Part shown: piece after piece, positions 2,935 to 39,948 of the stretch | How the letters are laid out: every line of letters begins with the position of its first letter | Numbering within the stretch: position 1 is the first letter of the stretch | DNA from: Lysobacteraceae bacterium | Lineage (GTDB): Bacteria > Pseudomonadota > Gammaproteobacteria > Xanthomonadales > Rhodanobacteraceae | Assembly: GCA_028866435.1 (NCBI GenBank) | Contig: JAGWIC010000018.1 | Span: 1-40,229, forward strand | Length of the DNA stretch: 40,229 nucleotides | Direction: 5' to 3' | The notes under the pieces: model-generated | The model's database searches: none | The model's input: the letters and a program-made list of their open reading frames with translations, nothing else | What the model was told of the DNA's origin: nothing | Made by a program: the position numbers and the translations under genes

Positions 2935-4478
2935 TGAAAGTCCGTGCCCAGATCGCGATGGTGCTCAACCTCGACAAGTGCATCGGTTGCCACACCTGCT
3001 CGATCACCTGCAAGAACGTGTGGACCTCGCGCGAGGGCGTCGAGTACGCCTGGTTCAACAACGTCGAGACCAAGCCCGGCATCGGCTACCCGAAGGAGTG
3101 GGAAAACCAGGACAAGTGGAACGGCGGCTGGGTGCGTACCCGTGCCGGCAAGCTGCTGCCGCGCGCCGGCGGGCGCTGGCGGATGCTGGCGAAGATCTTC
3201 GCCAATCCCGACCTGCCGCAGATCGACGACTACTACGAGCCGTTCGACTTCGACTACCAGCACCTGCACGATGCGCCCGAAGGCCGGCAACAGCCCACCG
3301 CGCGCCCGCGCTCGCTGATCAGCGGCGAGCGCATGCAGAAGATCGAATGGGGTCCCAACTGGGAGGAGATCCTCGGCACCGAGTTCGCCAAGCGCGCCAA
3401 GGATCGCAACTTCGACTCGATCCAGAAGGAGATCTACGGCGCGTTCGAGAAGACCTTCATGATGTACCTGCCGCGCCTGTGCGAGCACTGCCTCAATCCG
3501 GCCTGCGTGTCGGCGTGCCCAAGCGGCGCGATCTACAAGCGCGAGGAAGACGGCATCGTGCTGATCGACCAGGACAAGTGCCGCGGCTGGCGCATGTGCG
3601 TGTCGGCCTGCCCGTACAAGAAGATCTACTACAACTGGAAGAGCGGCAAATCCGAGAAGTGCATCTTCTGCTACCCGCGCATCGAGATGGGCGAGCCGAC
3701 CGTGTGCGCGGAGACCTGCGTCGGCCGCATCCGCTATCTCGGCGTGATGCTGTACGACGCCGACCGCATCCAGCAGGCCGCGTCGGTGCCCGCTGAGCAG
3801 GACCTGTACCAGGCCCACCTGGACATCTTCCTAGACCCGTTCGATCCGAAAGTGAACGAGGCGGCGCGTGCCGAAGGCATTCCGGACAACTGGCTGGAGG
3901 CCGCCAGGTCGTCGCCGGTATACAAGATGGCGATCGAGTGGAAGCTGGCACTGCCGCTGCATCCGGAGTACCGCACGCTGCCCATGGTCTGGTACGTGCC
4001 GCCGCTGTCGCCGATCCAGTCGGCCGCCGAGCGGGGCCGCATCGGCATGAACGGCGAGTTGCCCGACGTCGCCTCCTTGCGCATCCCGGTGCGCTACCTG
4101 GCCAACCTGCTCACCGCGGGCGACGAAGCGCCGGTGGTTCGCGCACTGGAACGCATGATGGCGATGCGTGCATGGCGCCGCGCGCGTAACGTCGACGGCG
4201 TCGAGGACCTGGCCGTGCTCAGGCAGGCGGGGCTTACCGTCGAGCAGGCCGAAGAGATGTACCGCTACCTGGCGATCGCCAATTACGAGGATCGTTTCGT
4301 GGTGCCCACGGCACACCGGGAATACGCCAACGACGCATTCGGCGAGCGCGGCGGCTGCGGCTTTACCTTCGGCAACGGCTGCAGCGGGAACAGCCCGGCC
4401 GACCTGTTCACCCAGCGCAGGACGACCACCTATGCCGTGCACCCGAATCGGCAGGAAAAGAACGAGGTGAGCCCATGA
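2934..4478 (+). CDS. narH: Respiratory nitrate reductase beta subunit NarH
   Basis: Electron-transfer subunit of NarGHI, carrying one [3Fe-4S] and three [4Fe-4S] clusters between the NarI hemes and NarG. The 514 residues match the usual length of about 512. Cluster ligands are visible: C16-x2-C19-x2-C22-x3-C26 near the N-terminus, C183-x2-C186-x4-C191-x3-C195, and C216-R-G-W219-x2-C222-x3-C226. In the last motif Trp219 replaces a Cys, as in the known [3Fe-4S] site. A further Cys group follows around KCIFCYPRIEMGEPTVCAETC. The start was chosen because AAGGAGG lies just upstream and the ATG overlaps the narG stop. The 3' end overlaps narJ by four bases, which implies translational coupling. Confidence 0.98.
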   Translation: MKVRAQIAMVLNLDKCIGCHTCSITCKNVWTSREGVEYAWFNNVETKPGIGYPKEWENQDKWNGGWVRTRAGKLLPRAGGRWRMLAKIFANPDLPQIDDYYEPFDFDYQHLHDAPEGRQQPTARPRSLISGERMQKIEWGPNWEEILGTEFAKRAKDRNFDSIQKEIYGAFEKTFMMYLPRLCEHCLNPACVSACPSGAIYKREEDGIVLIDQDKCRGWRMCVSACPYKKIYYNWKSGKSEKCIFCYPRIEMGEPTVCAETCVGRIRYLGVMLYDADRIQQAASVPAEQDLYQAHLDIFLDPFDPKVNEAARAEGIPDNWLEAARSSPVYKMAIEWKLALPLHPEYRTLPMVWYVPPLSPIQSAAERGRIGMNGELPDVASLRIPVRYLANLLTAGDEAPVVRALERMMAMRAWRRARNVDGVEDLAVLRQAGLTVEQAEEMYRYLAIANYEDRFVVPTAHREYANDAFGERGGCGFTFGNGCSGNSPADLFTQRRTTTYAVHPNRQEKNEVSP

Positions 4479-5158
4479 ACGTGCTGAAGCTGATCGGCGT
4501 GCTGCTGGACTATCCCCAGGACGAACTGTGGCAGCACGGCGGGGAGTTGCTGGACGCGGTGAACGTGCCGAATCTTCCGGTGGCACGCCGGACGGAATTG
4601 GCGGCGTTCGTGCAGGATCTGCTCGACATGGATTCGCTCGCCGCGCAGGACAGGTGGCTGCAGACGTTTGATCGCGGCCGCTCCATGAGCCTGCTGCTGT
4701 TCGAGCATATCCACGGCGAATCGCGCGATCGTGGCCAGGCGATGGTCGACCTGATCGAAGCCTACCGCCGCCAGGGTTTCGATCTGGCCGCCAGGGAACT
4801 GCCCGACTACCTGCCGCTGGTGCTGGAATTTCTGGCGCAGCGGCCGCAAAACGAGGTGCAGGACTGGCTTGCCCACATCGGCCACATCGTCGGCATGCTG
4901 GCCGCGCGCGCCGGCGAGCGCGGCAGCCCTTACCGGGTGCTGTTCGAGCTGTTGCTGGAACTGGCCGATGGCAAGCTGGACCTGACCGCACTGCGCCTGC
5001 GTGCCAGCGAGGAGCCGCGCGACGACACCGCCGAGGCGATGGACCGCCTGTGGCAGGAGGAAATGGTTCGATTTGGCGCCCAGGCACCCGCCGACGACTG
5101 CCGGCCGGCCACCCGCGGGGCGCCTTTCTCCACGGTTACCCCGCAGGTGCAGCCATGA
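4475..5158 (+). CDS. narJ: Nitrate reductase assembly chaperone NarJ
   Basis: System-specific chaperone of the TorD/NarJ family. It binds apo-NarG and promotes molybdenum and Fe-S cofactor insertion before the complex docks on NarI, and it is not part of the final enzyme. The 227 residues fit the family size of about 230. The protein is mostly helical and acidic, with the typical N-terminal LKLIGVLLDYPQDELWQH and the central ELPDYLPLVLEFLA segment of NarJ. The ATG overlaps the narH stop (ATGA) and its own stop overlaps the narI start in the same way. Identity rests on motif recognition and on position between narH and narI. Confidence 0.96.
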   Translation: MNVLKLIGVLLDYPQDELWQHGGELLDAVNVPNLPVARRTELAAFVQDLLDMDSLAAQDRWLQTFDRGRSMSLLLFEHIHGESRDRGQAMVDLIEAYRRQGFDLAARELPDYLPLVLEFLAQRPQNEVQDWLAHIGHIVGMLAARAGERGSPYRVLFELLLELADGKLDLTALRLRASEEPRDDTAEAMDRLWQEEMVRFGAQAPADDCRPATRGAPFSTVTPQVQP

Positions 5159-9508: not shown

Positions 9509-10495
9509 TCACAAGCCGAGGTTGTTGCGTTCCAGTACGCGCTCGGCGCGGTAGCTGGAACGCACCAGCGGGCCGGCCACGGCCTCCAGGAAACCCTTGC
9601 CCAGGGCCAGTTCGCGATAGCGAAGGAACTGCTCGGGGGTGACGAATCGCTGCACCGGCAGGTGGTGCGGGCTGGGCCGCAGGTACTGCCCCAGGGTGAC
9701 CACGTCGACCTCGGCGCGGCGCAGGTCGTCCAGGGTGCGATCGATTTCCTCGTCCGTCTCGCCCAGGCCCAGCATCAGGCTGGTCTTGGTCAGCGTGGCG
9801 GGGGCGTGGCGCTTGGCGAAAGCCAGTATCGCCAGGGTCTGCGCGTAGCCCGCGCGCGGGTCGCGCACGGGATGGGTGAACCGCTCGACCGTCTCCAGGT
9901 TTTGCGCATAGGTGGCCAGGCCGGCATCGAGCACGGTCGCGACGGCGTCGAGCTGGCCGCCGAAATCGGGCGTCAGCGCCTCCAGCGCGGTCGCCGGCGA
10001 GCGCTGGTGAATCGCCCGGATGCACGCCGCGTAATGGGCGGCGCCGCCGTCCGCGAGGTCGTCGCGGTCCACCGAGGTCAGCACCACGTAGTCCAGCTTC
10101 ATCAGCGCCACCGCGTGGGCCACCCGCGCCGGCTCCAGCGGGTCGAGCCAGCCGTGCGGATTGCCGGTGCTGACCGAACAGAACCGGCACGCCCGCGTGC
10201 ATACCGAACCCATCAGCATCAGCGTGGCGGTGCCGCGGCTCCAGCACTCGGCGATGTTCGGGCATTTCGACTCCGCGCACACCGTGTTCAAGCGGTGCGT
10301 GTCCACGATCTGGCGGATGTCCTGGTACCGGGCGCCGGCCGGCAGGCCGACCCGCAGCCAGGGCGGCTTGCGTCCCGCGTCCGGCAGGCCGCTCAGGGCA
10401 TTGGGACGGATCCCGCCCTTGATCGCGCGCGTTCCCTGCGGGCTGACAAACTTGCTGCCGTCGGGGAGCGCGGAGCGGGATTCGTTGTTCGGCAT
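9509..10495 (-). CDS. lipA: Second lipoyl synthase (LipA paralog), probably FNR-controlled
   Basis: Radical-SAM enzyme that inserts two sulfur atoms into protein-bound octanoyl groups to make the lipoyl cofactor of 2-oxoacid dehydrogenases and the glycine cleavage H protein. The 328 residues carry both iron-sulfur motifs: auxiliary cluster C73-x4-C78-x5-C84 and radical-SAM C99-x3-C103-x2-C106, plus the C-terminal RSSY ligand motif. It is therefore expected to be active. It differs clearly from the lipB-linked LipA at 23720, for instance [10 protein letters not shown] against [10 protein letters not shown] after the radical-SAM motif, so it is a divergent paralog, not a recent copy. Upstream in-frame starts exist at 10528 and 10558, but ATG 10558 lies inside an FNR-like box, so ATG 10495 is preferred. 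It is transcribed divergently from glpK. Confidence 0.88.
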
Positions 10496-10551
10496 GAGAT
10501 GGATGGGCTTTTGCGATGCATGCACCATGCCGGGTCGTGCGCGCCAGTGCA

Positions 10552-10565
10552 CTGACATACATCAA
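10552..10565 (-). promoter_or_regulatory. FNR-like box upstream of the lipA paralog
   Basis: Plus-strand CTGACATACATCAA, minus-strand TTGATGTATGTCAG, matches TTGAT-N4-ATCAA at eight of ten defined positions. Its centre is 63.5 bp from ATG 10495. An activator site at -41.5 would place the transcript start near 10517, with a CATGGT -10-like hexamer at 10529-10524. It could also influence glpK, whose ATG is 104 bp away. Confidence 0.6.
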
Positions 10566-23719: not shown

Positions 23720-24730
23720 ATGAGCGAAACTTCCCCGACCCCCCCGCGCACTATCCCGATCAGCGTCGTCGCCACCCCCGCCGCGGGGGAGAAGCAGCTG
23801 GGCAATGACAAGATCGCCCTCAACCGTGCCGGTTTCGACACCGGCGTGGCGACCCTGCGCAAGCCCAGCTGGATCCGCGTGCGGCTGCCGCAGGGCAACG
23901 CCGTGCAGCAGTTGAAGGCGCGCCTGCGCGGGAACGCGCTGGTCACGGTGTGCGAGGAAGCCTCCTGCCCCAATATCCACGAGTGCTTCAGCAAGGGCAC
24001 CGCCACCTTCATGATCCTGGGCGAGGTGTGCACCCGGCGCTGCTCGTTCTGCGACGTGGCGCATGGCCGCCCGCAGCCGCCCGACGAGCTCGAGCCGGCG
24101 CGGCTGGCGCAGACCATCGCCGACATGCGGTTGCGCTACGTGGTGATCACCTCGGTCGATCGCGACGACCTGCGCGACGGCGGCGCGGCGCATTTCGCCA
24201 GTTGCATCCGTGCCGTGCGCCATGCCAGCCCGAGCATCCGCATCGAGATCCTCACCCCGGACTTCCGTGGCAAGGGCCGCATGGAGCGGGCGCTGGAGGT
24301 GCTGAAGGAATACCCGCCGGATGTGTTCAACCACAATCTGGAGACCGTGCCGCACCTGTATCGTGAAGTGCGTCCTGGCGCCGACTACCAGTGGTCGCTG
24401 GACCTGCTCAAGCGCTTCAAGGCGCAACACCCGGAGGTGCTGACCAAGTCCGGCATCATGCTCGGCCTCGGCGAGACGCACGAGCAGGTGCTCGAGACCA
24501 TGCGGGACCTGCGCGCCCACGACGTCGAGATGATCACCATCGGCCAGTACCTGCAGCCCACGCCGCACCACCACCCGGTCGTGCGCTACTGGAGTCCTGA
24601 AGAATTCGAGGCCCTGCGCGTGGCCGGTGACGAGATGGGTTTCCATCACGTCGCCTCCGGTCCGCTGGTCCGTTCGTCCTACCACGCCGACCTGCAGGCC
24701 CATGCAGCCGGTGTTACCGAGTCCGCCTGA
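23720..24730 (+). CDS. lipA: Lipoyl synthase LipA (canonical copy)
   Basis: Radical-SAM enzyme that completes lipoyl groups on octanoylated proteins. It has 336 residues, with the auxiliary cluster motif C78-x4-C83-x5-C89, radical-SAM motif C104-x3-C108-x2-C111, and the C-terminal [10 protein letters not shown] segment. Its linkage to lipB marks it as the housekeeping copy. The paralog at 9509-10495 shares all of these motifs but has its own FNR-like box. No FNR box is seen near this copy. Confidence 0.97.
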
Positions 24731-27129: not shown

Positions 27130-27143
27130 TTGACGTGAATCAA
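27130..27143 (+). promoter_or_regulatory. FNR box upstream of the leader ORF/decarboxylase/ubiD unit
   Basis: TTGACGTGAATCAA matches the TTGAY-N4-ATCAA consensus at every defined position. Its centre is 60.5 bp upstream of ATG 27197. If it sits at -41.5, transcription starts near 27178 and CATAGG at 27169-27174 lies in the -10 region. The prc terminator lies upstream, so it can only serve the rightward genes. Confidence 0.85.
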
Positions 27144-27196: not shown

Positions 27197-27319
27197 ATGA
27201 TCGGTGGTGGGCTTGGCATTTTTACGAACGGCAACCGGGCGGCCCGGCTCCACCGGCGCGCACGCACCGTCGCCGTCAGCGCCCCCGATTCGGCCGGCAG
27301 CCGTGGGTTGCCCGCATGA
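27197..27319 (+). CDS. Short leader ORF (40 codons) coupled to the decarboxylase gene
   Basis: ATG 27197 follows a good GGAGG ribosome site by eight bases and opens a 40-codon frame rich in Arg, Gly and Ala, without a recognisable domain or signal peptide. Its TGA overlaps the ATG of the decarboxylase gene (ATGA). The decarboxylase has no ribosome site of its own, so translating the leader probably delivers ribosomes to it. It could be a real small protein, a regulatory leader peptide, or only a translation-coupling device. The ORF lies 60 bp behind a perfect FNR box. No homology was recognised. Confidence 0.5.
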   Translation: MIGGGLGIFTNGNRAARLHRRARTVAVSAPDSAGSRGLPA

Positions 27320-29280
27320 GCGCCGCCCAGCCCCTGCCGCAGATCGGCCCGCACGACCACACGCTCGACGCCTGCTTTCTCGGCCCGTACGGGGAAAACG
27401 ACAGCTTGCTGGAGAAACTCATGGTGGAGTTTCTGCGCGACCACGTGTACTGGCGCCGCAATTTCCATCCGGAGGATCCGCCGGCCATCGCCACCTCGGC
27501 GGCACGGGATCCGGGCTACCTGGCCTTCGAGTCGCGCATGCGGCGCGAACTGCACCAGCTGTCCGCGGCGCTGAAGAAGTCGGTACCGTTCCACAGCCCG
27601 CGCTACATGGGGCACATGGCATCGGACCTGCTGCTGCCGGGCCTGGCGGCACAGATACTGACCCTGCCGTACAACCCCAACAATGTCAGCGAGGACGCGG
27701 CGCCGGTCACCGTGGACATGGAGGTGCAGGTCGGCCTGCAGCTGGCGCGCATGTTCGGTTATCCGCACGACCCGCTGCAGCCGGCCTGCGCGTTCGGCCA
27801 CCTCACCTCCGGTGGCACGCTGGCGAACTACCAGGCGCTGCGGCTCGCGCTGGCCCTGAAGGCGTTCCCGGTGGCGCTGCGCGCCGCCGGGGTGCCGGAG
27901 CTCGCCTTGCCGAACGATGACTGGGCAGCCTTCAACCTCTCGCCGGCGGCCGGGATCGCCTTGCTGGAAACGTGGCAGCGCTGGCTGGCGGCGTTGCCGG
28001 CATCGCAGCGTACCCACTGGCGGGCTCGGGTCGAGGCCGAGCGCATCGAGCAACTGGGCCTGGCCGGCTTCTTCGCCGCCCATCCGGAACTGCGGGTGCC
28101 GCTGGTGCTGGCGCCGGTCACCGCGCACTATTCGTGGAGCAAGGGGGTCAAGCTGCTGGGCCTGGGGCGGGCGCAGCTCGAACTGCTGCCAACCCGTGGC
28201 ATGCGGCTCGATACCGACGCGCTCGAGGCCACCCTCGAGCGCTGCGCCAGGGAGCGCCAGCCGGTCCTGCTGTGCGTGGGCGTGCTGGGCGGGACCGAGT
28301 ACGGCACCATCGACCCGCTGGACGGCGTGCTCGCCGCGCGCGAGCGCGCGCGGGCGCTGGGGCTGGATTTCTCGGTCCACGTGGATGCCGCCTGGGGCGG
28401 CTACCTGGCAACCATTTTCCGTCGCGAGGACGGCGGCCTGCGTCCCCGCGACGAGGTTGCCGGCGAGTTCACCCAGTTCCCGTCGCCGGCGGTGCACGCG
28501 GCGTTCGCGGCGCTGAGCGGGACGGATTCGGTCACGGTCGACCCGCACAAGCTCGGTTACCTGCCCTACGGCGCCGGTGCCTTCGTCTGCCGCGACCATC
28601 GCGCGGTCGCGCTGCTGGCCGAGCGGGCCGACTACGTGTTCCACGGCGGCACCCCGCAGGATTACCTCACCCGCTATCGCAGCCTCGGCCAGTTCGTACC
28701 CGAGGGCTCCAAGGCGGGGGCGGCGGCGGCCGCGGTTTACGTCACGCACAAGGTATTGCCGCTGGATCACCGCCACTTCGGCCGCCTGCCGGCGCAAACC
28801 GTGCGCTGCGCGGAAATTTTCCACGCCCACGCCAAGCGCTTCGCCCTCGACATTGCGGACCGGTTCCTGGCGATGGTGCCGGTGACGCCGGACAGCAACC
28901 TGGTCTGCCTGGCCATCAATCCGCGCGGCAACACTTCCGTGGCGAAGGCCAATGCATTCCTGCGCGCGCTGCACGACACCTTGCGCTGCGATCCGCGCCA
29001 GCCGCTGCAGACCAAGGAGTACTTCGGCTCGGTGACCACCTTGCGCCCGGAGATGCTCGGCGCGGCGGAGACCAGCCGCATCTTCGCCGCGCTCGGGCTG
29101 GACGAGGCCACCCTGGGCGACGAGGAGGACAGCGACCGCCTGATGATCCTGCGCCATACGCTGATGAACCCCTACCTGATCGACCACGAGAACGACATCA
29201 GCTACATCGAGGGCTATTTCGATTTCCTGACGCGCCGGCTGCGCGGGCTGTCCGAGCCCGCCGCGGACGCCCGCCGCTGA
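27316..29280 (+). CDS. Group II PLP-dependent amino acid decarboxylase (tyrosine decarboxylase-like)
   Basis: Cytosolic PLP enzyme of 654 residues. The Schiff-base Lys is K412 in VDPHKLGYLPYGAGAF, and the cofactor-binding Asp is about D357 in HVDAAWGGY. The N-terminal WRRNFHPEDPPAI, FHSPRYMGHMASDLLLPGL and YNPNNVSEDAAPVT segments resemble, from memory, the long tyrosine decarboxylases of enterococci (about 620 residues) more than the shorter GadA or MfnA types. Substrate is not settled: tyrosine, another aromatic amino acid or an acidic amino acid are all possible. The gene is coupled to a short leader ORF behind an FNR box and lies 52 bp before ubiD, so it is probably made anaerobically with UbiD. 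A role in acid tolerance or in aromatic precursor supply is conceivable. Confidence 0.85.
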   Translation: MSAAQPLPQIGPHDHTLDACFLGPYGENDSLLEKLMVEFLRDHVYWRRNFHPEDPPAIATSAARDPGYLAFESRMRRELHQLSAALKKSVPFHSPRYMGHMASDLLLPGLAAQILTLPYNPNNVSEDAAPVTVDMEVQVGLQLARMFGYPHDPLQPACAFGHLTSGGTLANYQALRLALALKAFPVALRAAGVPELALPNDDWAAFNLSPAAGIALLETWQRWLAALPASQRTHWRARVEAERIEQLGLAGFFAAHPELRVPLVLAPVTAHYSWSKGVKLLGLGRAQLELLPTRGMRLDTDALEATLERCARERQPVLLCVGVLGGTEYGTIDPLDGVLAARERARALGLDFSVHVDAAWGGYLATIFRREDGGLRPRDEVAGEFTQFPSPAVHAAFAALSGTDSVTVDPHKLGYLPYGAGAFVCRDHRAVALLAERADYVFHGGTPQDYLTRYRSLGQFVPEGSKAGAAAAAVYVTHKVLPLDHRHFGRLPAQTVRCAEIFHAHAKRFALDIADRFLAMVPVTPDSNLVCLAINPRGNTSVAKANAFLRALHDTLRCDPRQPLQTKEYFGSVTTLRPEMLGAAETSRIFAALGLDEATLGDEEDSDRLMILRHTLMNPYLIDHENDISYIEGYFDFLTRRLRGLSEPAADARR

Positions 29281-29332: not shown

Positions 29333-30811
29333 ATGAGCCATCACGACCTGCGCACGTTCATCGCCCAACTCGAGCGTGAGCGGCAGTTGCTTCGCGTCGC
29401 CAGCCCGGTCGACCCCGAGCTGGAGTCGACCGCGCTGTGCCTGCGCGCGCTGAAGGAGGGCGGGCCGGCGCTGCTGATGGAGCATGCGGGGCAGTCGCCG
29501 CAGCCGCTGCTGGGCAACCTGTTCGGCGATCGTCGACGGATCGAGAGCGCACTGGCCGGGCGGCCGCTGGCGAGCCTGCGCGAACTCGGGCAGCTGCTGG
29601 CCTCGATCAAGGAGCCGCGCTGGCCGTCCAGCCTGCGCGACGCGCTGGCGACCTGGCCGGAGCTGGCGCAGCTGGCCCACGTGGCGCCGCAGCGCGTGCG
29701 CGAGGCGGCGTTCGAGTACGAGACCTTGCGCGGCGGCGAGATCGACCTGGCGCGCCTGCCCATCCAGCGCTGCTGGCCGCAGGATGCCGGCAAGCTGATC
29801 ACCTTCGGCCTGGTGATCACCCGCGGCACGCTCAAGCCGCGGCAGAACGTGGCGATCTACCGGCAGCAGCTGATCGGACCGAACAAGCTGATCATGCGCT
29901 GGCTGCCGCATCGCGGCGGTGCGCTGGACTACGCCGACTGGCGAGTCGCCCATCCGGGCAAGCCGTTCCCCGTGCTGGTCGCGATCGGTGCCGATCCGGC
30001 CACCATGCTGGCGGCGGTGGCGCCGGTGCCGGATACCCTGTCCGAATACGAGTTTGCCGGCCTGCTGCGCGGCCAGCGCACCCGGGTATGGCGCAGCGAG
30101 CTGACCGGGCTGGACGCGCCGGCCGGTGCGGAGATCCTGCTGGAAGGCTTCATCGCGCCGGAGGAGACCGCGCTGGAGGGTCCGTTCGGCGACCACACCG
30201 GCTATTACAACGCGCAGGACCACTTCCCGGTGTTCACCGTCGAACGCATGCGCCTGCGCCACGGGGCGATCTATCACGGCAGCTACATGGGCCGTGCGCC
30301 GCACGATGAGCCGTCGGTGCTGTCGATGGCCTTGAACGACGTGTTCGTGCCGATCCTGCAGAAGGTGTTTCCGGAGATCGTCGATTTCCACCTGCCGCCG
30401 GAGGCCTGCTCGTACCGCATCGCCGTGGTCAGCATCCGCAAGCAGTATCCCGGCCACGCGCGCCGCATGATGATGGGCATCTGGTCGTACCTGCGCCAGT
30501 TCACCTACACCAAGTTCGTGATCGTCACCGACGACGACATCGACGTGCGCGACTGGTCGCAGGTGATCTGGGCACTCGCCACCCGGGTCGATCCGGCGCG
30601 CGATTCGATGCTGGTGGAGAACACGCCGATCGACTACCTCGACTTTTCCAGCCCGACCCCCCATCTGGGCTCCAAGCTGGGCATCGACGCCACCAACAAG
30701 TGGCCGGCCGAAACCACCCGCAGCTGGAGCAAGCCGATCGTGCCCGATCCCGAGGTAGAGCGACGGGTGGATGCGCTGTGGGCGAGCCTGGCCGGCTCAG
30801 CGGGCGGCTGA
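29333..30811 (+). CDS. ubiD: 3-Polyprenyl-4-hydroxybenzoate decarboxylase UbiD
   Basis: Prenylated-FMN-dependent decarboxylase that removes the carboxyl group from polyprenyl-4-hydroxybenzoate in ubiquinone synthesis. It has 492 residues, close to the E. coli 497. Motifs include LRTFIAQLERERQLLRV, YRQQLIGPNKLIMRW, LEGPFGDHTGYYNAQDHFPV, TVERMRLRHGAIYHGSYMG and the C-terminal LGIDATNKWPAE. The start at 29333 was chosen over an in-frame ATG 12 codons upstream because it gives the usual N-terminus. UbiX, which makes the cofactor, is not in the window. It lies behind the FNR-linked decarboxylase gene and 450 bp before ubiU. Its last 15 bp overlap the tail of the opposite Cys-rich gene. Confidence 0.95.
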   Translation: MSHHDLRTFIAQLERERQLLRVASPVDPELESTALCLRALKEGGPALLMEHAGQSPQPLLGNLFGDRRRIESALAGRPLASLRELGQLLASIKEPRWPSSLRDALATWPELAQLAHVAPQRVREAAFEYETLRGGEIDLARLPIQRCWPQDAGKLITFGLVITRGTLKPRQNVAIYRQQLIGPNKLIMRWLPHRGGALDYADWRVAHPGKPFPVLVAIGADPATMLAAVAPVPDTLSEYEFAGLLRGQRTRVWRSELTGLDAPAGAEILLEGFIAPEETALEGPFGDHTGYYNAQDHFPVFTVERMRLRHGAIYHGSYMGRAPHDEPSVLSMALNDVFVPILQKVFPEIVDFHLPPEACSYRIAVVSIRKQYPGHARRMMMGIWSYLRQFTYTKFVIVTDDDIDVRDWSQVIWALATRVDPARDSMLVENTPIDYLDFSSPTPHLGSKLGIDATNKWPAETTRSWSKPIVPDPEVERRVDALWASLAGSAGG

Positions 30812-31259: not shown

Positions 31260-32258
31260 ATGCAACTGGTCTGTCCTGCCGGCAACCTGCCTGCGTTGAC
31301 CGCCGCGATCGAGGCTGGCGCCGATGCGGTCTACGCGGGTCTCCGCGACCAGACCAATGCGCGTGCCTTCCCCGGCCTGAACTTCAGCGACGACGAACTG
31401 CGCGCCGGCATCGCCCTGGCGCACGCGCGCGGGCGCAAGGTCTACCTGGCGCTCAACACCTACCCGGACAGCGCGCGGCTGGCGCAGTGGTTCGCGGCGG
31501 TGGACAAGGCGGCCGAGTTCGGCTGCGACGCGATCATTGCCGCCGAAATGGCCGTGCTCGACTACGCCGCCCGCACCCATTCCGCGCTGCCGCGGCACCT
31601 GTCGGTGCAGGGCTCGGCGACCACCGCCGCGGCGCTGCGCTACATGCACGAGCGCTTCGGCATCAGCCGCGCGGTGCTGCCGCGGGTGCTGTCGCTGCAG
31701 CAGGTCGAGCGCCTGTGCGAGAACTCGCCGGTGCCGCTGGAGGTGTTTGCCTTCGGCAGCCTGTGCATCATGGTCGAGGGCCGCTGCCAGCTTTCCAGCT
31801 ACGTCACCGGCGCCTCGCCGAATCGCCATGGCGTGTGCTCGCCGGCGAAGTTCGTGCGCTGGGAGGAGCATGGCGATGGCGAGCGCAGCGTGCGCCTGAA
31901 CGATGTGCTGATCGACCGCTTCCAGGCGCGCGAGCCCGCCGGCTATCCCACCGTCTGCAAGGGGCGTTTCGATGTCGGCGGCGACATCTTCCATGCGCTG
32001 GAGGAACCGACCAGCCTCAACACCCTGGAGCTGCTGCCGCGGCTGGCGCAGGCCGGCGTGGTGGCGCTGAAGATCGAGGGTCGCCAGCGCGGCGTGGCCT
32101 ATGTGCGTTCGGTGACGCAAACCTGGCGCGAGGCACTGGACCGCTACCGGGCCGCGCCGGGGCCATGGGCATTGCAGGCCGACTGGCAGCGCTCGTTGTC
32201 GGCCCATGCCGAGGGTCACCAGACCACGCTCGGTCCCTATCACCGCAGCTGGCACTGA
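31260..32258 (+). CDS. ubiU: O2-independent ubiquinone hydroxylation protein UbiU (U32 peptidase family)
   Basis: With UbiV it forms a [4Fe-4S]-bearing heterodimer needed for hydroxylation of the ubiquinone ring without oxygen. It has 332 residues (E. coli 331). Sequence agreement with E. coli UbiU is extensive: CPAGNLPALTAAIE, GADAVYAGL, EVFAFGSLCIMVEGRC, SPAKFVRW and the C-terminal QTTLGPYHRSW. Cluster ligands are Cys169, Cys176, Cys193 and Cys233, matching the four E. coli ligands. The frame is open ten codons upstream, but ATG 31260 has GAGGT before it and gives the standard N-terminus. An FNR box lies 63.5 bp upstream, consistent with anaerobic induction. ubiV follows directly. Confidence 0.97.
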   Translation: MQLVCPAGNLPALTAAIEAGADAVYAGLRDQTNARAFPGLNFSDDELRAGIALAHARGRKVYLALNTYPDSARLAQWFAAVDKAAEFGCDAIIAAEMAVLDYAARTHSALPRHLSVQGSATTAAALRYMHERFGISRAVLPRVLSLQQVERLCENSPVPLEVFAFGSLCIMVEGRCQLSSYVTGASPNRHGVCSPAKFVRWEEHGDGERSVRLNDVLIDRFQAREPAGYPTVCKGRFDVGGDIFHALEEPTSLNTLELLPRLAQAGVVALKIEGRQRGVAYVRSVTQTWREALDRYRAAPGPWALQADWQRSLSAHAEGHQTTLGPYHRSWH

Positions 32259-32286: not shown

Positions 32287-33171
32287 ATGATGAAACTGAG
32301 CCTGGGTCCGCTGCAGTATTTCTGGCCGCGCGAACGCACGCTGGCGTTCTACCGCGAGAGCATGGGCTGGCCGGTCGAGATCATCTACCTGGGCGAGACC
32401 GTGTGCAGCAAGCGGCGCGAGCTCGGCACCCGCGACTGGATCGCGCTGGCCGAGGAGCTGCGCGCCAGCGGCAAGCAGGTGGTGCTGTCATCGCTGGCCC
32501 TGATCGAGGCCGAATCCGAACTGGGTGCGTTGAAGCGGCTGATCGGCGACGGCGGCGGCTGGATCGAGGCCAACGACTTGTCGGCGGTGCAATTGTGCCG
32601 CGAGCGCGGGATCCCGTTCGTCGCCGGCCCCACGCTCAACATCTACAACCACCGTGCGCTGGCCATGCTGATCGAGGACGGGCTGCGGCGCTGGGTGCCG
32701 GGCGTGGAGCAGGGCGAGACGCTGCTGCGCGAAATGCAGGCATCGATGCATGCCGGAGGGCGGCCCATGCCGGAGCTGGAGGTGATCGCGTTCGGTCGCC
32801 TGCCGCTGTCCTTCTCCGCGCGTTGCTTCACCGCGCGTGCGCTGGACGTGGCCAAGGACCACTGCGAATTCCGCTGCATCGAATACCCCGACGGCATGCC
32901 GCTGGCCACGCGCGAGGGAAAGCCGTTCCTGCGCATCAACGGCATCCAGGTCCAGGGCGAGGAGATCACCGACCTCGGGCCGGAGCTTCCGGCGCTGCGC
33001 GAGCTTGGCGTGGACGTGTTGCGCCTGTACCCGCAGGTGCACGCCATGGCCGACGTGGTGGCGCACTTCGACCTTGCCCGCCGCTCACCGCAGGCACCGC
33101 CGAGGGTCGCCGCGCGCAACGGCTACTGGCACGGCGAGCCGGGCATGCCGCTGCCCGCCCGGAACGCGTAG
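32287..33171 (+). CDS. ubiV: O2-independent ubiquinone hydroxylation protein UbiV (U32 peptidase family)
   Basis: Partner of UbiU in anaerobic ubiquinone hydroxylation. It has 294 residues (E. coli 292). Matching segments are KLSLGPLQYFWPRE, IIYLGETVCSKRR, LPLSFSARCFTARA and the ending GYWHGEPG. Cluster ligands are Cys40, Cys180, Cys193 and Cys197, as in E. coli UbiV. Possible starts are 32263, only four bases after the ubiU stop, and 32287 or 32290, which align with the E. coli N-terminus. None has a clear ribosome site, which suggests coupling to ubiU. The gene is convergent with fabB, with a hairpin between. Confidence 0.96.
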   Translation: MMKLSLGPLQYFWPRERTLAFYRESMGWPVEIIYLGETVCSKRRELGTRDWIALAEELRASGKQVVLSSLALIEAESELGALKRLIGDGGGWIEANDLSAVQLCRERGIPFVAGPTLNIYNHRALAMLIEDGLRRWVPGVEQGETLLREMQASMHAGGRPMPELEVIAFGRLPLSFSARCFTARALDVAKDHCEFRCIEYPDGMPLATREGKPFLRINGIQVQGEEITDLGPELPALRELGVDVLRLYPQVHAMADVVAHFDLARRSPQAPPRVAARNGYWHGEPGMPLPARNA

Positions 33172-33283: not shown

Positions 33284-34492
33284 TCACACCCGCGCGAACA
33301 CCAGGCTGCCGTTGGTACCGCCGAAGCCGAAGCTGTTCGACATCACCGTGTGCAGCTGCGCCTCGCGGCTCTCGCGCAGGATCGGAAAGCCCTCGGCGCG
33401 CGGATCGAGCTGGTCGATATGGGCCGAGCCGGCCATGAACCCGCCCTTGAGCATCAGCAGGCTGTAGATCGCCTCGTGCACGCTGGCGGCGCCGAGCGAG
33501 TGGCCGGTCAGCGCCTTGGTCGAGGAAAGCGGCGGCACCGCCGTGCCGAATACCTCGCGCACCGCCTGCAACTCCACGATGTCGCCCACCGGGGTGGCGG
33601 TGCCGTGGGTGTTGAGGTAGTCGATCGGCGCGTTCAGGTCACGCATGGCCATGCGCATGCAGCGCACGGCGCCTTCGCCGGAGGGCGCGACCATGTCGCC
33701 GCCATCGGAGGTCACGCCGTAGCCGACCAGTTCGGCATGGATGCGCGCACCGCGCGCCCGCGCATGCTCGTACTCCTCCAGCACCAGCATGCCGCCGCCG
33801 CCGGCGATGACGAAGCCGTCGCGGCCGGCGTCATAGGGGCGCGAGGCCACCTGCGGGGTTTCGTTGTAGCCGCTGGACAGCGCGCCCATGGCGTCGAACT
33901 CGACCGTCATGCCCCAATGCTCTTCCTCGCCGCCGCCGGCGAACATCACGTCCTGGGCGCCGTGGCGGATCAGGTCGGCGGCCGCGCCTATGCAATGCGC
34001 CGAGGTGGCGCAGGCGGCCGAGATCGAATAGCTCAGGCCGTGGATGGCGAACGCGGTCGCCAGCGTGGCGGACACCGTCGAGCACATCGTGCGCGGCACC
34101 ATGTACGGACCGACCTTGCGCACGCCCTTCTCGCGCAGCAGGTCGGCGGTCTCGATCTGCCACTGCGCCGAACCGCCGCCGGAGCCGGCGATCACGCCGC
34201 AGCGCGGATCGCTTACCTGTTCGGCGCTGAGCCCGGCATCGGCGATCGCGTCGCGCATGGCCACCCAGGCATAGGCCGCGGCATCGCCCATGAAGCGCTT
34301 GCGCTTGCGGTCGATCTCCGCCACCAGGTCGATCTGCGGCACGCCGGCGACCTGGCTGCGCATGCCGCGCGCGGCGTAGTCCGGCATCGCCGAGATGCCG
34401 CTGCGCAGGTCGCGCAGGGAGCGTTCCACGGTGCTGGCCTCGTTGCCGATGCAGGACACGATGCCCATGCCGGTGACGACGACCCGGCGCAT
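33284..34492 (-). CDS. fabB: Beta-ketoacyl-ACP synthase I FabB
   Basis: Condensing enzyme that elongates the cis-3-decenoyl-ACP made by FabA, so it is essential for oxygen-independent unsaturated fatty acid synthesis. It has 402 residues. The nucleophile is Cys161 in [14 protein letters not shown], and the catalytic His residues lie in [11 protein letters not shown] and [11 protein letters not shown]. The C-terminal [14 protein letters not shown] is standard. The ATG overlaps the fabA stop by one base (TGATG), so the pair is translated together and should share the FNR-linked promoter upstream of fabA. Confidence 0.97.
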
Positions 34493-35007
34493 CAGAAACC
34501 CTCCGTCGACTGGAACAGGCCCACGCGCATGTCGTCGGCCTCGTAGATCAGGCGGTCGTCGACCAGCACCCTGCCATTGGCAATCACCAGCGCCAGCTTG
34601 CCGCGCATCACCCGGCGGATGTCGATTTCATAACGCACCAGCTTTGCGCTCGGCAGCACCTGGCCGGAAAACTTCACCTTGCCCACGCCCAGTGCGCGGC
34701 CACGTCCCGGCTCGCCCATCCATGGCAGGAAGAATCCGCTGAGCTGCCACAGCGCATCCAGCCCGAGGCAGCCGGGCATCACCGGATCGCCCTCGAAATG
34801 ACAGCCGAAGAACCACAGGTCGGGGCGGATATCCAGCTCGGCGCGGATGCACCCCTTGCCGGCGGCGCCGCCGTGGTCGTCGATATGCGTGATGCGGTCG
34901 AACATCAGCATGGGTGGCATCGGCAACTGCGCGTTGCCGGGACCGAACATTTCGCCGCGGGCGCAGGCGAGCAGCTGGTTGTAGTCGAACGACGAAGGGC
35001 GTGTCAT
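34492..35007 (-). CDS. fabA: 3-Hydroxydecanoyl-ACP dehydratase/isomerase FabA
   Basis: Dehydrates 3-hydroxydecanoyl-ACP and isomerises trans-2 to cis-3 decenoyl-ACP, the branch point to unsaturated fatty acids without oxygen. It has 171 residues, with catalytic His70 and Asp84 at the same numbers as in E. coli ([24 protein letters not shown]). GCAGG precedes the ATG by seven bases. The 129 bp between nadB and fabA contain an FNR box 63.5 bp from the start codon, which suggests that fabAB expression rises without oxygen. Confidence 0.98.
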
Positions 35008-35063: not shown

Positions 35064-35077
35064 TTGATGCCAGTCAA
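35064..35077 (-). promoter_or_regulatory. FNR box upstream of fabA-fabB
   Basis: Plus-strand TTGATGCCAGTCAA matches TTGAT-N4-ATCAA at nine of ten positions. Its centre is 63.5 bp from the fabA ATG, the same spacing as at ubiU and the lipA paralog. A start near 35029 with a CAAACT -10-like element at 35041-35036 is predicted. Confidence 0.75.
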
Positions 35078-36579: not shown

Positions 36580-37601
36580 ACTGCTTCGTGCCGTCCGATC
36601 GCCAGCATCCGGTCCAGTGCCGCGCGCGCACGTGTGGCCACGTCGGCGGGCACCTCGACCTCATGCCGCCGATCGCGCAGGCAGGCGTAGATGTTCTGCA
36701 GGGTGATCTGCTGCATGTGCGGGCACAGGTTGCACGGCTTGAAAAACTCGATGTGGCTGAATTGCGAGCGCAGGTTTTCCGCCATCGAGCACTCGGTGAT
36801 CAGCGCGACGCGCGGCGGATTCTCCTTCGCCAGCCAGCGGGTCATGGCGCTGGTGGAGCCGACGAAATCGGCTTCGGCCCAGACCTCGGGCGGGCATTCC
36901 GGGTGCGCGATCAGCTTGGCGTCGAAGCGTTCGCGCGCGTGGCGCGCCTGTTGCGCGGTGAACTTTTCATGCACTTCGCAGCGGCCATGCCACAGCAGCA
37001 ATTCCACCTTGGTCTTGCTGGCCACGTAGCTGCCGAGGTAGCGGTCCGGCAGGAAGATGACCTGCTCCGTGCCCATCGCCTCGACCACCTCGACCGCGTT
37101 GGCCGACGTGCAGCAGGCATCGGATTCGGCCTTCACCTCGGCCGAGGTGTTGACGTAGCTGACGACCGGCACGCCCGGGTGCCGTGCGCGCAGGGCGACG
37201 ACATCGGCGGCGGTGATCGAGCTGGCCAGCGAGCAGCCCGCGTCGAGATCGGGGATCAGCACGGTCTTGCCGGGCGCGAGGATCTTTGCGCTCTCGGCCA
37301 TGAAATGCACGCCGCACATCACGATCACCTCGGCGGCGCAGGTGGCCGCCTGCTGGGCCAGCGCGAGCGAGTCGCCGGTGATGTCGGCCACGCCGTGGAA
37401 GATCTCCGGCGACTGGTAGCTGTGCGCCATGATCACGGCGCCGCGCTGGGCCTTCAGGCGGTTGATCGCATCGATCCACGGCAGGTGCCACGACCATTCC
37501 AGGCAGGGCACCTGGCGCTCCATGCGCGCGGTGAGCCCGGCGTACTCGTGCTCAAGTTCGTCACGCCATACCGGCATGGGCAGGGTATCGGGGTGGGTCA
37601 T
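36576..37601 (-). CDS. nadA: Quinolinate synthase NadA
   Basis: [4Fe-4S] enzyme that condenses iminoaspartate with dihydroxyacetone phosphate to quinolinate. It has 341 residues. Cluster ligands are probably Cys96 (MCGVHFMAESAKIL), Cys208 (GRCEVH) and Cys293 of the C-terminal CNLCPHM motif. Further motifs are MAHSYQSPEI, DLDAGCSLASS and YVNTSAEVKAESDACCTSAN. The frame is open upstream, but ATG 37601 gives the correct N-terminus. It lies 41 bp behind the chorismate mutase-UbiT gene, so it may be transcribed from the FNR-controlled ubiT promoter. It overlaps nadB. Confidence 0.96.
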   Translation of the reverse strand: MTHPDTLPMPVWRDELEHEYAGLTARMERQVPCLEWSWHLPWIDAINRLKAQRGAVIMAHSYQSPEIFHGVADITGDSLALAQQAATCAAEVIVMCGVHFMAESAKILAPGKTVLIPDLDAGCSLASSITAADVVALRARHPGVPVVSYVNTSAEVKAESDACCTSANAVEVVEAMGTEQVIFLPDRYLGSYVASKTKVELLLWHGRCEVHEKFTAQQARHARERFDAKLIAHPECPPEVWAEADFVGSTSAMTRWLAKENPPRVALITECSMAENLRSQFSHIEFFKPCNLCPHMQQITLQNIYACLRDRRHEVEVPADVATRARAALDRMLAIGRHEAV

Positions 37602-37642
37602 GGCATTCCGTGGTGTGGCTCGGCGGTTGCCGTCGTGGCGGC

Positions 37643-38503
37643 TCAGGCCGCCTCGCCGTGATGGGCGGCGCGGGCGGCGCGGGCGAATCGCGCGCCGCGG
37701 TTCATGACGATGCGCAGCGCCAGCGGGATCGATTCCCAGGGCAGCCGGTCGAGCATGTTGCGGGCGGTCAGTCCGAGCTCGGTATCCCCGGTGAGGCGCA
37801 GGCGCCGCTGGAAGAACAGGGTATCGGCATCTTCGAGGCGCCCGGCCAGCAGCAGCAGGTCGGTGGCGCTGCCCCATACGCTGGCATCGGCTTCACCGTC
37901 GGTCACGTGGCACTGGTCGCCGCGCAGTTCCACCACCCAGCGCAGGCGCAGGTCTTCCACCTCGATCGCGATGCGCCGGTCGCGCATGAAGTCCAGCGAA
38001 CCGTCGCGCAGGGGAGCGGCGAGCACGTGGCTCATGGCGGTCTGCAGCAGGCGCTGCTGCCAGCGCGACGGCAGCAGGCGCAGCAGCGGCGCCGCCCGCC
38101 GTGGAGGCGGCAACAGCCGCAACAGGCGCGGCGCGAGGGGGGAATCGGCGAAGGTCATGGGCATGATGGCAGCCATTGTCGGTGCAGGGCCGGTATCGCC
38201 GCATTGATCCGGGTCAAATGACAGGCCTTGCTGGCGACAGCCGTCGCCGATGACCAGGTCGAGCAGCTCCTGCACGGTGCTGCCGGGCAGGTCGAGCCGT
38301 GCAGCCAGGCGGAACGCGCGCTGGCGCACCCTCTGTTCGCGCGCGAGGTCGCGCGGCGGCACGCGGGCACGCGATTTGAGCGTGGCCACCCGGCTCACCA
38401 TGTGGCGGCGCGCCGCCAGCAACAGCAGCAGGCTGTCGTCGATGCGGTCGATCACGCCGCGCGTGCGCGCCAGGGCCAGTCGTTCAGGCAGATACGTAGT
38501 CAT
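37643..38503 (-). CDS. ubiT: Chorismate mutase-UbiT fusion protein
   Basis: One uninterrupted frame of 286 residues with two domains. Residues 8-95 are an AroQ-type chorismate mutase that aligns without gaps to the E. coli P-protein mutase (offset four). Arg15, Arg32, Lys43, Asp52, Arg55, Glu56 and Gln92 correspond to E. coli Arg11, Arg28, Lys39, Asp48, Arg51, Glu52 and Gln88. Only Ser84 is changed, to Gly88. From about residue 116 the sequence is a complete UbiT (SCP2-like lipid-binding factor of O2-independent ubiquinone synthesis), with ADTLFFQRRLRLTGDTELGL as in E. coli. A perfect FNR box encodes linker residues 96-100. Internal Met codons at 38176, 38164 and 38158 could start a free UbiT. 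The gene follows the TusA-like gene by 48 bp and precedes nadA. Confidence 0.92.
   Translation of the reverse strand: MTTYLPERLALARTRGVIDRIDDSLLLLLAARRHMVSRVATLKSRARVPPRDLAREQRVRQRAFRLAARLDLPGSTVQELLDLVIGDGCRQQGLSFDPDQCGDTGPAPTMAAIMPMTFADSPLAPRLLRLLPPPRRAAPLLRLLPSRWQQRLLQTAMSHVLAAPLRDGSLDFMRDRRIAIEVEDLRLRWVVELRGDQCHVTDGEADASVWGSATDLLLLAGRLEDADTLFFQRRLRLTGDTELGLTARNMLDRLPWESIPLALRIVMNRGARFARAARAAHHGEAA
38204..38217 (-). promoter_or_regulatory. Perfect FNR box inside the chorismate mutase-ubiT frame
   Basis: Minus-strand TTGACCCGGATCAA fits TTGAY-N4-ATCAA at all ten positions. It lies in the linker-coding DNA between the two domains, and its centre is 52.5 bp upstream of ATG 38158 and 46.5 bp upstream of ATG 38164. 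Activation at -41.5 would start a transcript near 38169 encoding only UbiT and the genes downstream. Confidence 0.8.
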
Positions 38504-38551
38504 CGGGGTGCCCGGTGGCGTGGATGGGGGCGACAGCCGGCGGGAACCGCC

Positions 38552-38839
38552 TCATGGTGGAGCTTGGGCATCCCGTGATGGCCGGTGGATTTTCACGCAG
38601 ATGTCGCCGTTTGGCAGGGTCCGCGCCTCGGTCTGCAGACCCAGCCCGGCGAGCAGGGCCAGCAGCGAGGTCGGGCTTTGCGGGCTCAGCAGCCACACCG
38701 TCTGTCCGGGTGTCAGGGCGCCGGCCAGGACCTGTGCCAGCTGCAGTGGTGGCGGGCAGGGCAACCCACCCGGCACGCCTGCATGCAGGTGTCCCGCGGC
38801 GTCAGGCACAGGCGCATCCGATGGCGGCAGCTGGTGCAT
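38552..38839 (-). CDS. TusA/SirA-like small protein
   Basis: A 95-residue soluble protein. Residues 24-86 follow the TusA pattern: GGLPCPPPLQLAQVLAGALTPGQTVWLL, with Cys28 at the position of the persulfide-carrying Cys of the CPxP motif. TusA-family proteins pass sulfur for tRNA thiolation, molybdenum cofactor or other pathways, and some have redox roles. The second half (LLALLAGLGLQTEARTLPNGDICVKI) keeps the fold pattern but is divergent, so the call is moderate. An FNR-like box lies 42.5 bp upstream of the ATG. A GTG ten codons downstream is an alternative start. It sits between fnr and the ubiT fusion gene. Confidence 0.6.
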   Translation of the reverse strand: MHQLPPSDAPVPDAAGHLHAGVPGGLPCPPPLQLAQVLAGALTPGQTVWLLSPQSPTSLLALLAGLGLQTEARTLPNGDICVKIHRPSRDAQAPP

Positions 38840-38874
38840 GCTGGCATTGGAGCACGGCTGGCCGTGGCGACGCT

Positions 38875-38888
38875 CTGACGTGGGTCAA
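38875..38888 (-). promoter_or_regulatory. FNR-like box upstream of the TusA-like gene
   Basis: Minus-strand TTGACCCACGTCAG has the TTGAC half-site intact and TCA of the second half (eight of ten). The centre is only 42.5 bp from ATG 38839, so a -41.5 activator site would predict an almost leaderless transcript or a start at the downstream GTG. Confidence 0.55.
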
Positions 38889-38946
38889 ACGCTGCCCCGG
38901 CGAGGATGCGCGGGACCGCGCAGGCGCCGCCGACCGGCTGCCGGGG

Positions 38947-39711
38947 TCAGCCCTGCAGCAGGCTTTTGCCGATGTCGCGCAAACGGGGCGGGTCGCACAG
39001 GAACAGTTCGCGTCCCTCGATTTCGACCAGGCCGGTGCTGCGGAAACGGCCGAGCACGCGGCTTACGGTCTCGGAGGCGAGGCGCAGGTAGTTGGCGATA
39101 TCGGCACGCGACATGCTCAGGCGGAAGCGCGAGCTGGAAAAACCTCGCACGGCGTAGCGCTCGCTCAGGTCGATGAGAAAGGCCGCCATGCGTTCGTCGG
39201 CGCTGTAGTCGCCGACCAGCAGGCCGACCGTGCCGATCTCCTTGCTGAGCATGCGGAACAGGTGTTGCTGCACCACCGGCATCCGCGTCGCCAGCGCGCT
39301 TATCGCGGGAAAGGAGAAGCGGCAGAACTGGGCAGGTTCCAGTGCGATGGCATTGCATGGAAAACGGTCGGGGTGGATCGCGTCGAGGCCGATGACTTCG
39401 CCGGGCAGGTGGAAGCCCAGCACCTGCTCCCGTCCGGCGTGGTCGATGGTGCTGGTCTTCGCCGCGCCGGTACGCACGGCGAAGATGGCGCGGAAAGGGT
39501 CGCCTTCGCGGAACAGGTAGCCCCCCGGGGGCAGCGGACCGACGCTCTCGACCAGGCAGTGCAGGGCGCTGAGTTCGGTCTTGCCACCGCCCACCGCCAG
39601 GCAGGCGCGGGCGAAGGCGCAGGTCCGGCAGAACCCCGCTTCATCAGCCGCCTCATCGGCGAGCGGGTTCGGCGGCTCGGGATGTCTGCCATCGCGGCTG
39701 GTCTGATGCAT
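38947..39711 (-). CDS. fnr: FNR/ANR-type oxygen-sensing transcription regulator
   Basis: Crp/Fnr-family regulator of 254 residues that dimerises on FNR boxes when its [4Fe-4S] cluster is intact, that is, without oxygen. Three N-terminal cluster Cys are C28, C31 and C37 (FCRTCAFARAC), the same spacing as E. coli Cys20, 23 and 29, and Cys130 (EPAQFCRFSF) corresponds to Cys122. The cyclic-nucleotide-like domain is followed by a winged helix with Glu214, Ser217 and Arg218 (ASETVSRVLGRF), the residues that read TTGAT half-sites. It is therefore an FNR and not a heme-type DNR. ATG 39711 was chosen over 39741/39744 because a TATGAT -10 element covers the latter. It probably controls the six boxes listed in this window (inference). 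Confidence 0.94.
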   Translation of the reverse strand: MHQTSRDGRHPEPPNPLADEAADEAGFCRTCAFARACLAVGGGKTELSALHCLVESVGPLPPGGYLFREGDPFRAIFAVRTGAAKTSTIDHAGREQVLGFHLPGEVIGLDAIHPDRFPCNAIALEPAQFCRFSFPAISALATRMPVVQQHLFRMLSKEIGTVGLLVGDYSADERMAAFLIDLSERYAVRGFSSSRFRLSMSRADIANYLRLASETVSRVLGRFRSTGLVEIEGRELFLCDPPRLRDIGKSLLQG

Positions 39712-39739
39712 CGGAACATACTGGTGGGGAGGCGGCCCC

Positions 39740-39745
39740 ATCATA
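39740..39745 (-). promoter_or_regulatory. Candidate -10 element of fnr
   Basis: TATGAT on the minus strand matches five of six -10 positions. The predicted start near 39733 leaves a leader of about 22 nt before ATG 39711. No good -35 is visible at the right distance, and no FNR box was found here, so autoregulation is not supported by the sequence. Confidence 0.4.
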
Positions 39746-39892
39746 TCCCCAGTATCCGGGCTGGCTCGCGTCGCCGGCACCCGGCGCGGCGCATGGTGAG
39801 CCGGGCGTCCGGCCCGCCAGCGTGCGGCAAAACCGTTATGGACGGGGCTCCTGAGGGCGTTTCCCCGCTCCAGGGGACCCGGCCAGGCGCCC

Positions 39893-39913
39893 GCTGCGAC
39901 AGCTTGTCGCAGC
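39893..39913. repeat. Inverted repeat between the edge gene and fnr
   Basis: Nine-base arms GCTGCGACA and TGTCGCAGC are separated by GCT. The repeat lies 36 bp after the stop of the upstream minus-strand gene and about 180 bp before the fnr start. It may be a terminator hairpin without T-tract or an operator. The rest of 39746-39892 shows nothing recognisable. Confidence 0.5.
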
Positions 39914-39948
39914 ATGGCTGCATCGCGCCGGGCTCGCGCAGGACATCC

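Follow-up and report, generated by a model that had tools for sequence, protein, structure and literature searches.

Why should a chorismate mutase (CM) be joined in one protein to UbiT, a factor of anaerobic ubiquinone synthesis? The question is raised by a gene, here called CM-UbiT, on a 40,229-nucleotide stretch of DNA from a Lysobacteraceae bacterium of the order Xanthomonadales (contig JAGWIC010000018.1), the whole of which we refer to as the window. The original prediction, made from the letters alone, had read one frame there as an AroQ-type CM followed by a complete UbiT, and had taken it to connect chorismate metabolism with the making of ubiquinone under anaerobic conditions. That connection holds, the fusion is real and its AroQ domain, judged by its sequence, is plausibly active. 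We suggest that CM-UbiT is probably a dedicated source of prephenate built into the anaerobic ubiquinone pathway.

The fusion protein and its domains

The gene and its parts are as follows.

37643..38503, minus strand: whole CM-UbiT gene, 286 amino acids in a single frame
38222..38473, minus strand: AroQ-type CM domain, residues 11-94
38138..38221, minus strand: linker, residues 95-122, of low model confidence (predicted local distance difference test, pLDDT, below 50 at residues 101-119)
37643..38164, minus strand: UbiT part, a possible UbiT-only product of 173 amino acids from a putative start at internal Met114, whose ATG is read in the sequence

Curated models recognize both halves, which confirms the single-frame reading: the protein scores 48 bits against CM_2 (curated cut-off 27), and its match to NF047962 (UbiT), spanning residues 141-257, exceeds the NCBIfam equivalog cut-off. 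In the predicted structure the CM domain has the three-helix AroQ fold, and the UbiT part shows the SCP2 fold. The original prediction had counted seven of eight E. coli catalytic residues in the AroQ domain, and all seven are indeed present (R11, R28, K39, D48, R51, E52 and Q88, in what we take to be the numbering of the catalytic residues), with Gly in place of Ser at position 84. The fusion is an arrangement of known parts that is itself probably new; a search of open-licence PMC papers found none combining UbiT with chorismate mutase, nor chorismate mutase with SCP2 and ubiquinone.

Prephenate as a proposed link between chorismate mutase and UbiT

A recent review states that prephenate is the hydroxyl source for the hydroxylations carried out by UbiU and UbiV (PMC11574389, citing PNAS 2024), and it describes the exact chemistry of U32 enzymes, and direct evidence for it, as still to be demonstrated. 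The U32-family protein TrhP of E. coli is likewise described as requiring prephenate for hydroxylation (PMC6599085). A paper of 2023 on E. coli takes up the prephenate-donor idea in its Discussion and also suggests there that substrates reach UbiUV by way of UbiT in an anaerobic complex (PMC10470549). If prephenate is the oxygen donor of the pathway, the CM makes a co-substrate and diverts no chorismate from it, so the earlier view of the domain as a competing branch-point enzyme is probably wrong.

In the mechanism that we propose, the N-terminal AroQ domain would convert chorismate to prephenate, which the UbiU-UbiV hydroxylases would use as an organic oxygen donor (the role given to it in these papers), and the ring to be hydroxylated would be held by the SCP2 domain of UbiT. 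The fusion would place the prephenate maker at the point of use, under anaerobic control and separate from the genome's other CM. The linker DNA of many species would in addition retain the Fnr site of ubiT itself, giving extra UbiT alone.

The supply of the ring precursor appears to be separate from CM-UbiT. Among 15 genomes of the order (13 with the fusion; G307, in which the CM is split off; and G001, which has no linked CM), not one gave a match to UbiC, and every one carries a homologue of the FkbO/Hyg5 chorismatase family that scores below the curated cut-off. This homologue is a candidate source of 4-hydroxybenzoate, and the tyrosine-based route to the ring that had been offered as an explanation of the fusion is not needed.

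Conservation of the fused chorismate mutase

The fusion frames of the retrieved loci were pooled and identical proteins dropped, leaving 104 distinct fusions. R11, R28, K39, R51 and E52 are invariant in all 104, Q88 is found in 103 (His in the other) and D48 in 99 (Asn in five), and position 84 is occupied by Ala in 94, Gly in nine and Ser in one. Identity between the CM domains falls to a minimum of 24%, with a median of 43%. Only eight of 81 positions are identical in at least 103 fusions, and these eight include six of the seven catalytic ones (p = 6e-7, relatedness uncorrected); this p value and the Fisher tests treat genomes as independent, an assumption that overstates significance. The ratio of nonsynonymous to synonymous substitution rates (dN/dS) is below 1 for pairwise comparisons of the CM domain.

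In a tree of 47 CM domains, 18 of them fused, with long branches that leave the finer points unsure, the fused CMs group with two stand-alone CMs of the order (93/94 support), apart from other CMs (PheA, TyrA and similar, under one label) and from the CMs encoded beside ubiT elsewhere, described below. In G307 the CM and UbiT genes are separate, 35 kb apart on one contig; the CM gene adjoins fabA and fabB and keeps all seven residues, and UbiT is accompanied by UbiU and UbiV. In G041 the stand-alone CM, which is related to the fused one (2049-2351, minus strand, of locus L050), has K39 replaced by Arg; UbiU has no match in this genome, and UbiT none better than 1e-15. The substitution possibly reflects a constraint lost after loss of the pathway.

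Distribution of the fusion

Both domains occur in a single frame in 14 of 41 genomes (11 of 25 within the genus, three from other families). Thirteen of these 14 gave a second CM match, G011 showing the fusion alone, and the fused CM is therefore an extra one; the source genome itself has one further CM match, in a frame of 363 amino acids, so that the fused domain is not its sole source of prephenate. When the search for both domains across Xanthomonadales that the original prediction had proposed was run on 398 genomes of the order, scoring the best six candidates per genome, the fusion was detected in 59, and 38 further genomes had UbiT with no fused CM among the matches listed. All 59 fusion genomes have a UbiU match (E <1e-40), as do 36 of those 38, and the fusion occurs in none of the 299 genomes of this survey that lack UbiU.

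In a scan of named genomes, 79 of the best 80 of 357 loci have both domains in a single frame, and these 79 come from Rhodanobacter, Dyella, Frateuria, Dokdonella, Arenimonas, Thermomonas, Lysobacter, Luteimonas, Stenotrophomonas, Pseudoxanthomonas, Xanthomonas and others. Outside the order, none of the 86 UbiT matches in a class sample of 369 genomes has a fused CM, and the phylum-level sample likewise gave no fusion outside the order among the matches listed (the samples being of 369 and 398 genomes). As far as these matches go, the fusion occurs commonly within a single order, and the sampled genomes do not establish its absence elsewhere.

Some loci depart from the common form. In Arenimonas daejeonensis (L171, a chromosome record) the CM (3727-4041) and UbiT (3998-4612) lie in two overlapping frames, which may reflect a genuine split, gene decay or an error in the sequence. 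At G203:C1:1525588-1526259 (L089) the fusion profile is matched only from position 57 onward, with a TGA inside the match, and UbiU is not matched in this genome; the pathway appears to have decayed there. One CM match, in G022, was rejected as a fusion, as it sits, by eye, at the end of a TyrA-like protein and not of UbiT. A triple fusion with an upstream membrane protein was also considered for the frames of about 700 amino acids in L029, L031, L043 and L066 and was rejected; by eye, the part before the CM is low-complexity sequence and the membrane protein lies in another frame. By eye the membrane protein resembles NnrS, a tentative label, as Pfam assigned the copy in L050 to no family.

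Chorismate mutase genes beside ubiT outside the order

Flanks of up to 6 kb were fetched for each of the 86 ubiT loci that the class sample holds outside the order, several contigs ending inside this distance. A stand-alone CM gene directly adjoins ubiT at five of them (L239, L240, L241, L286 and L312, from five families), in clusters that also contain ubiU and ubiV, and these CMs score 53-67 bits against Pfam CM_2 and retain R11, R28, K39, R51 and E52. CM_2 frames of fewer than 200 amino acids are scarce in the first 60 such genomes: there are only five, four of which are the neighbours of ubiT. None of 14 further ubiT loci from the phylum-level listing has a neighbouring CM. Taken together, the fusion and the CM genes of another lineage beside ubiT provide genomic support for prephenate-donor chemistry.

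An Fnr-type box in the linker

Three sequence elements bear on the control of CM-UbiT.

38204..38217, minus strand: exact Fnr-type box in the coding sequence, codons F96-D-P-D-Q100, from the window scan
38175..38180, minus strand: putative -10-like hexamer GACAAT, starting 30 nucleotides (nt) from the box centre
38875..38888, minus strand: Fnr-type box with one mismatch, upstream of a DUF2249-like gene and CM-UbiT

Scanning the window with what we take to be the Fnr consensus gave seven sites with at most one mismatch, against 1.1 by chance. A box of this quality lies in the linker of 69 of the 104 fusions (12 exact), in the same reading phase, and the remaining gene sequence of the fusions holds one in 70,414 positions. 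Synonymous shuffling of the linker codons with the codon usage of each gene (200 trials) left a box in a mean of 6.3 linkers and a maximum of 13. Codon choice within the motif is also skewed: its first codon ends in T at all 74 sites with at most two mismatches, the amino acid being widely variable, and its Gln codons are CAA 46 times and CAG 25 times, compared with 141 and 558 elsewhere; because these sites were picked by the consensus the codon counts are partly circular, and the shuffle is the fair test.

Boxes are also found before ubiT genes that have no fused CM. Two such genes of the genus Rhodanobacter (L013 and L014) have an exact box 82 nt ahead of the UbiT domain. Among the first 60 class ubiT loci, 32 carry a box at a distance of 26-120 nt before that domain, a raw count that comes with no chance level. 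A box within 250 nt before the CM start is present in 21 of the 33 fusions without a linker box and in 17 of the 69 with one (Fisher p = 2e-4, relatedness uncorrected). The frequency of the linker box, far above that under shuffling, suggests that the linker embeds an anaerobic promoter that makes UbiT alone. We infer that the fusion arose when the CM frame ran through the Fnr promoter of ubiT, and that in many species this promoter would still yield UbiT by itself, starting in the window at Met114 (173 amino acids).

In a Class II Fnr-dependent promoter the -10 hexamer lies about 30 nt from the box centre, and +30 is the best TATAAT offset among 20-49 in the 69 linkers; synonymous shuffles score nearly the same. 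Under this shuffling the hexamer is inseparable from amino-acid conservation, and a generic sigma-70 scan of 37500-39000 returned no site. Nor is a Shine-Dalgarno sequence (SD) before a linker ATG clearly enriched: the best SD reaches at least 4 in 19 of 104 linkers and in 182 of 2080 single control codons, and several ATGs are permitted per linker.

A bolder form of the proposal, which we advance tentatively and consider somewhat doubtful as a whole, is that prephenate passes straight from the CM active site to UbiUV inside the anaerobic ubiquinone complex, that the swallowed promoter sets the ratio of CM-UbiT to free UbiT so that one frame gives two proteins, and that CM and ubiT became linked on two or more occasions, through fusion in one order and through the recruitment of a different CM lineage elsewhere.

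Weighing the alternatives

Several findings count against a dedicated prephenate source. UbiT occurs without a fused CM in G001, G007 and G272, the first and last of which also have UbiU, and at 81 of the 86 class ubiT loci outside the order no CM gene lies in the stretch examined; a dedicated CM is therefore helpful at most, and not required. The fused CM evolves faster than its partner (median dN/dS 0.49, compared with 0.35 for UbiT, over 1961 non-independent pairs). The neighbouring CMs lack Q88 and mostly lack D48, so that their activity is doubtful and they back the association more than the chemistry, and in G590 the neighbour is the only CM found in the genome and may be the housekeeping enzyme there. 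On a UbiU tree (FastTree) the five loci with a neighbouring CM correspond to four changes, at least three of them forced by starred branches, and gains are indistinguishable from losses.

The missing Q88 of the neighbouring CMs and the higher dN/dS of the fused CM would also fit if the CM fold merely dimerized UbiT or docked it to UbiUV with no catalysis, and AroQ domains are dimers; such a pseudoenzyme or scaffold is nevertheless unlikely, as it fits poorly with five catalytic residues that stay invariant throughout the fusions while the remainder of the domain diverges so far. Conserved binding residues could equally serve a sensor that binds chorismate or prephenate and gates UbiT or tunes chorismate flow, a role the original prediction had entertained as chorismate sensing. 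Pure sensing is made less likely by the invariance of catalytic residues across domains so divergent; K39, E52 and Q88, which we take to be catalytic, are retained as well, and the donor role of prephenate already accounts for the link, so we regard a sensor as distinctly improbable. We give even less credence to a chance read-through of adjacent genes with no functional meaning. The apparent ubiT promoter site in the linker is the remnant expected of such an origin, but the fusion is conserved across four families of the order and co-occurs strictly with UbiU, and elsewhere ubiT is adjoined by CM genes from a different lineage. The absence of UbiC in these bacteria might finally call for a PchB-like chorismate or isochorismate lyase that makes the ring precursor 4-hydroxybenzoate; this is highly improbable, and the isochorismate lyase model NF005475 (PchB) is absent from the 16 NCBIfam matches (E up to 1) of the window protein. 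A dedicated prephenate source remains the reading that we prefer.

Comparison with known systems

The window shares with E. coli a UbiT domain above the equivalog cut-off and nearby ubiU and ubiV, and it differs in the N-terminal CM and in an Fnr-type site that lies within coding sequence. In E. coli, ubiT has one Fnr-controlled and one aerobic promoter, the former (ubiTp2) with an Fnr site before ubiT as in the window (PMC10470549). Unlike the AroQ domain of E. coli PheA (1ecm), 103 of the 104 fusions have Ala or Gly in place of S84, and the partner of the CM is a lipid-binding domain rather than an amino-acid enzyme. The ubiT-ubiU gene fusion of Zymomonas mobilis (PMC6747719) is likewise a fusion inside the anaerobic ubiquinone pathway; it joins two pathway genes, whereas the window fusion adds a maker of co-substrate. 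The prephenate-dependent U32 proteins TrhP and RlhA need the same metabolite as the UbiU pathway and, unlike UbiU, act on RNA (PMC6599085). The idea that an organic molecule can be the oxygen donor of a hydroxylation is recent and still poorly understood. With CM-UbiT, the supply of co-substrate, the assembly of the complex and the hydroxylation itself would all be open to dissection by point mutation in one compact protein. The Fnr-type site in its linker would be a regulatory DNA element retained within a protein-coding fusion joint.

Genomic surroundings

Other features of the window with a bearing on the fusion are these.

29333..30811, plus strand: UbiD-family decarboxylase (TIGR00148, 476 bits, above cut-off)
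31260..32258, plus strand: ubiU (NF047963, 522 bits, above cut-off)
32290..33171, plus strand: ubiV (NF047965, 348 bits, above cut-off)
38552..38839, minus strand: DUF2249-like small gene immediately upstream of CM-UbiT (E 0.0062, below the Pfam cut-off)
38947..39915, minus strand: Crp/Fnr-family regulator, longest open reading frame (ORF; best NCBIfam match Fnr, 192 bits, below the 228-bit cut-off)

The window is an anaerobic respiration region, with part of narG at its start and ubiU, ubiV and the UbiD-family gene on the plus strand; fabB, fabA, nadA, the fusion and the Crp/Fnr-family regulator lie on the minus strand. ubiU and ubiV are about 4.5 kb from CM-UbiT, and the similarity of the window UbiU to the TrhP model is weaker (149 bits, below cut-off). 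The DUF2249-like gene is possibly co-transcribed with CM-UbiT, and the true start of the regulator is probably further inside its ORF. The call of nadB rests on a match to FAD_binding_2 and on its position next to nadA; these two genes of NAD synthesis are frequently downstream of the fusion in the flanks of L105-L184. The commonest gene order, at ten of 79 loci, comprises seven genes from the DUF2249-like gene through fabB.

An exact Fnr-type box at 35064-35077, upstream of fabA (34492-35007) and fabB, suggests anaerobic control of unsaturated fatty-acid synthesis in the window. Another exact box, at 27130-27143, lies upstream of a tyrosine decarboxylase-related gene (27316-29280; TIGR03811, 320 bits, far under cut-off). 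Two frames that by eye resemble lipoyl synthase also occur within these 40 kb, at 9509-10558 on the minus strand and 23720-24730 on the plus strand.
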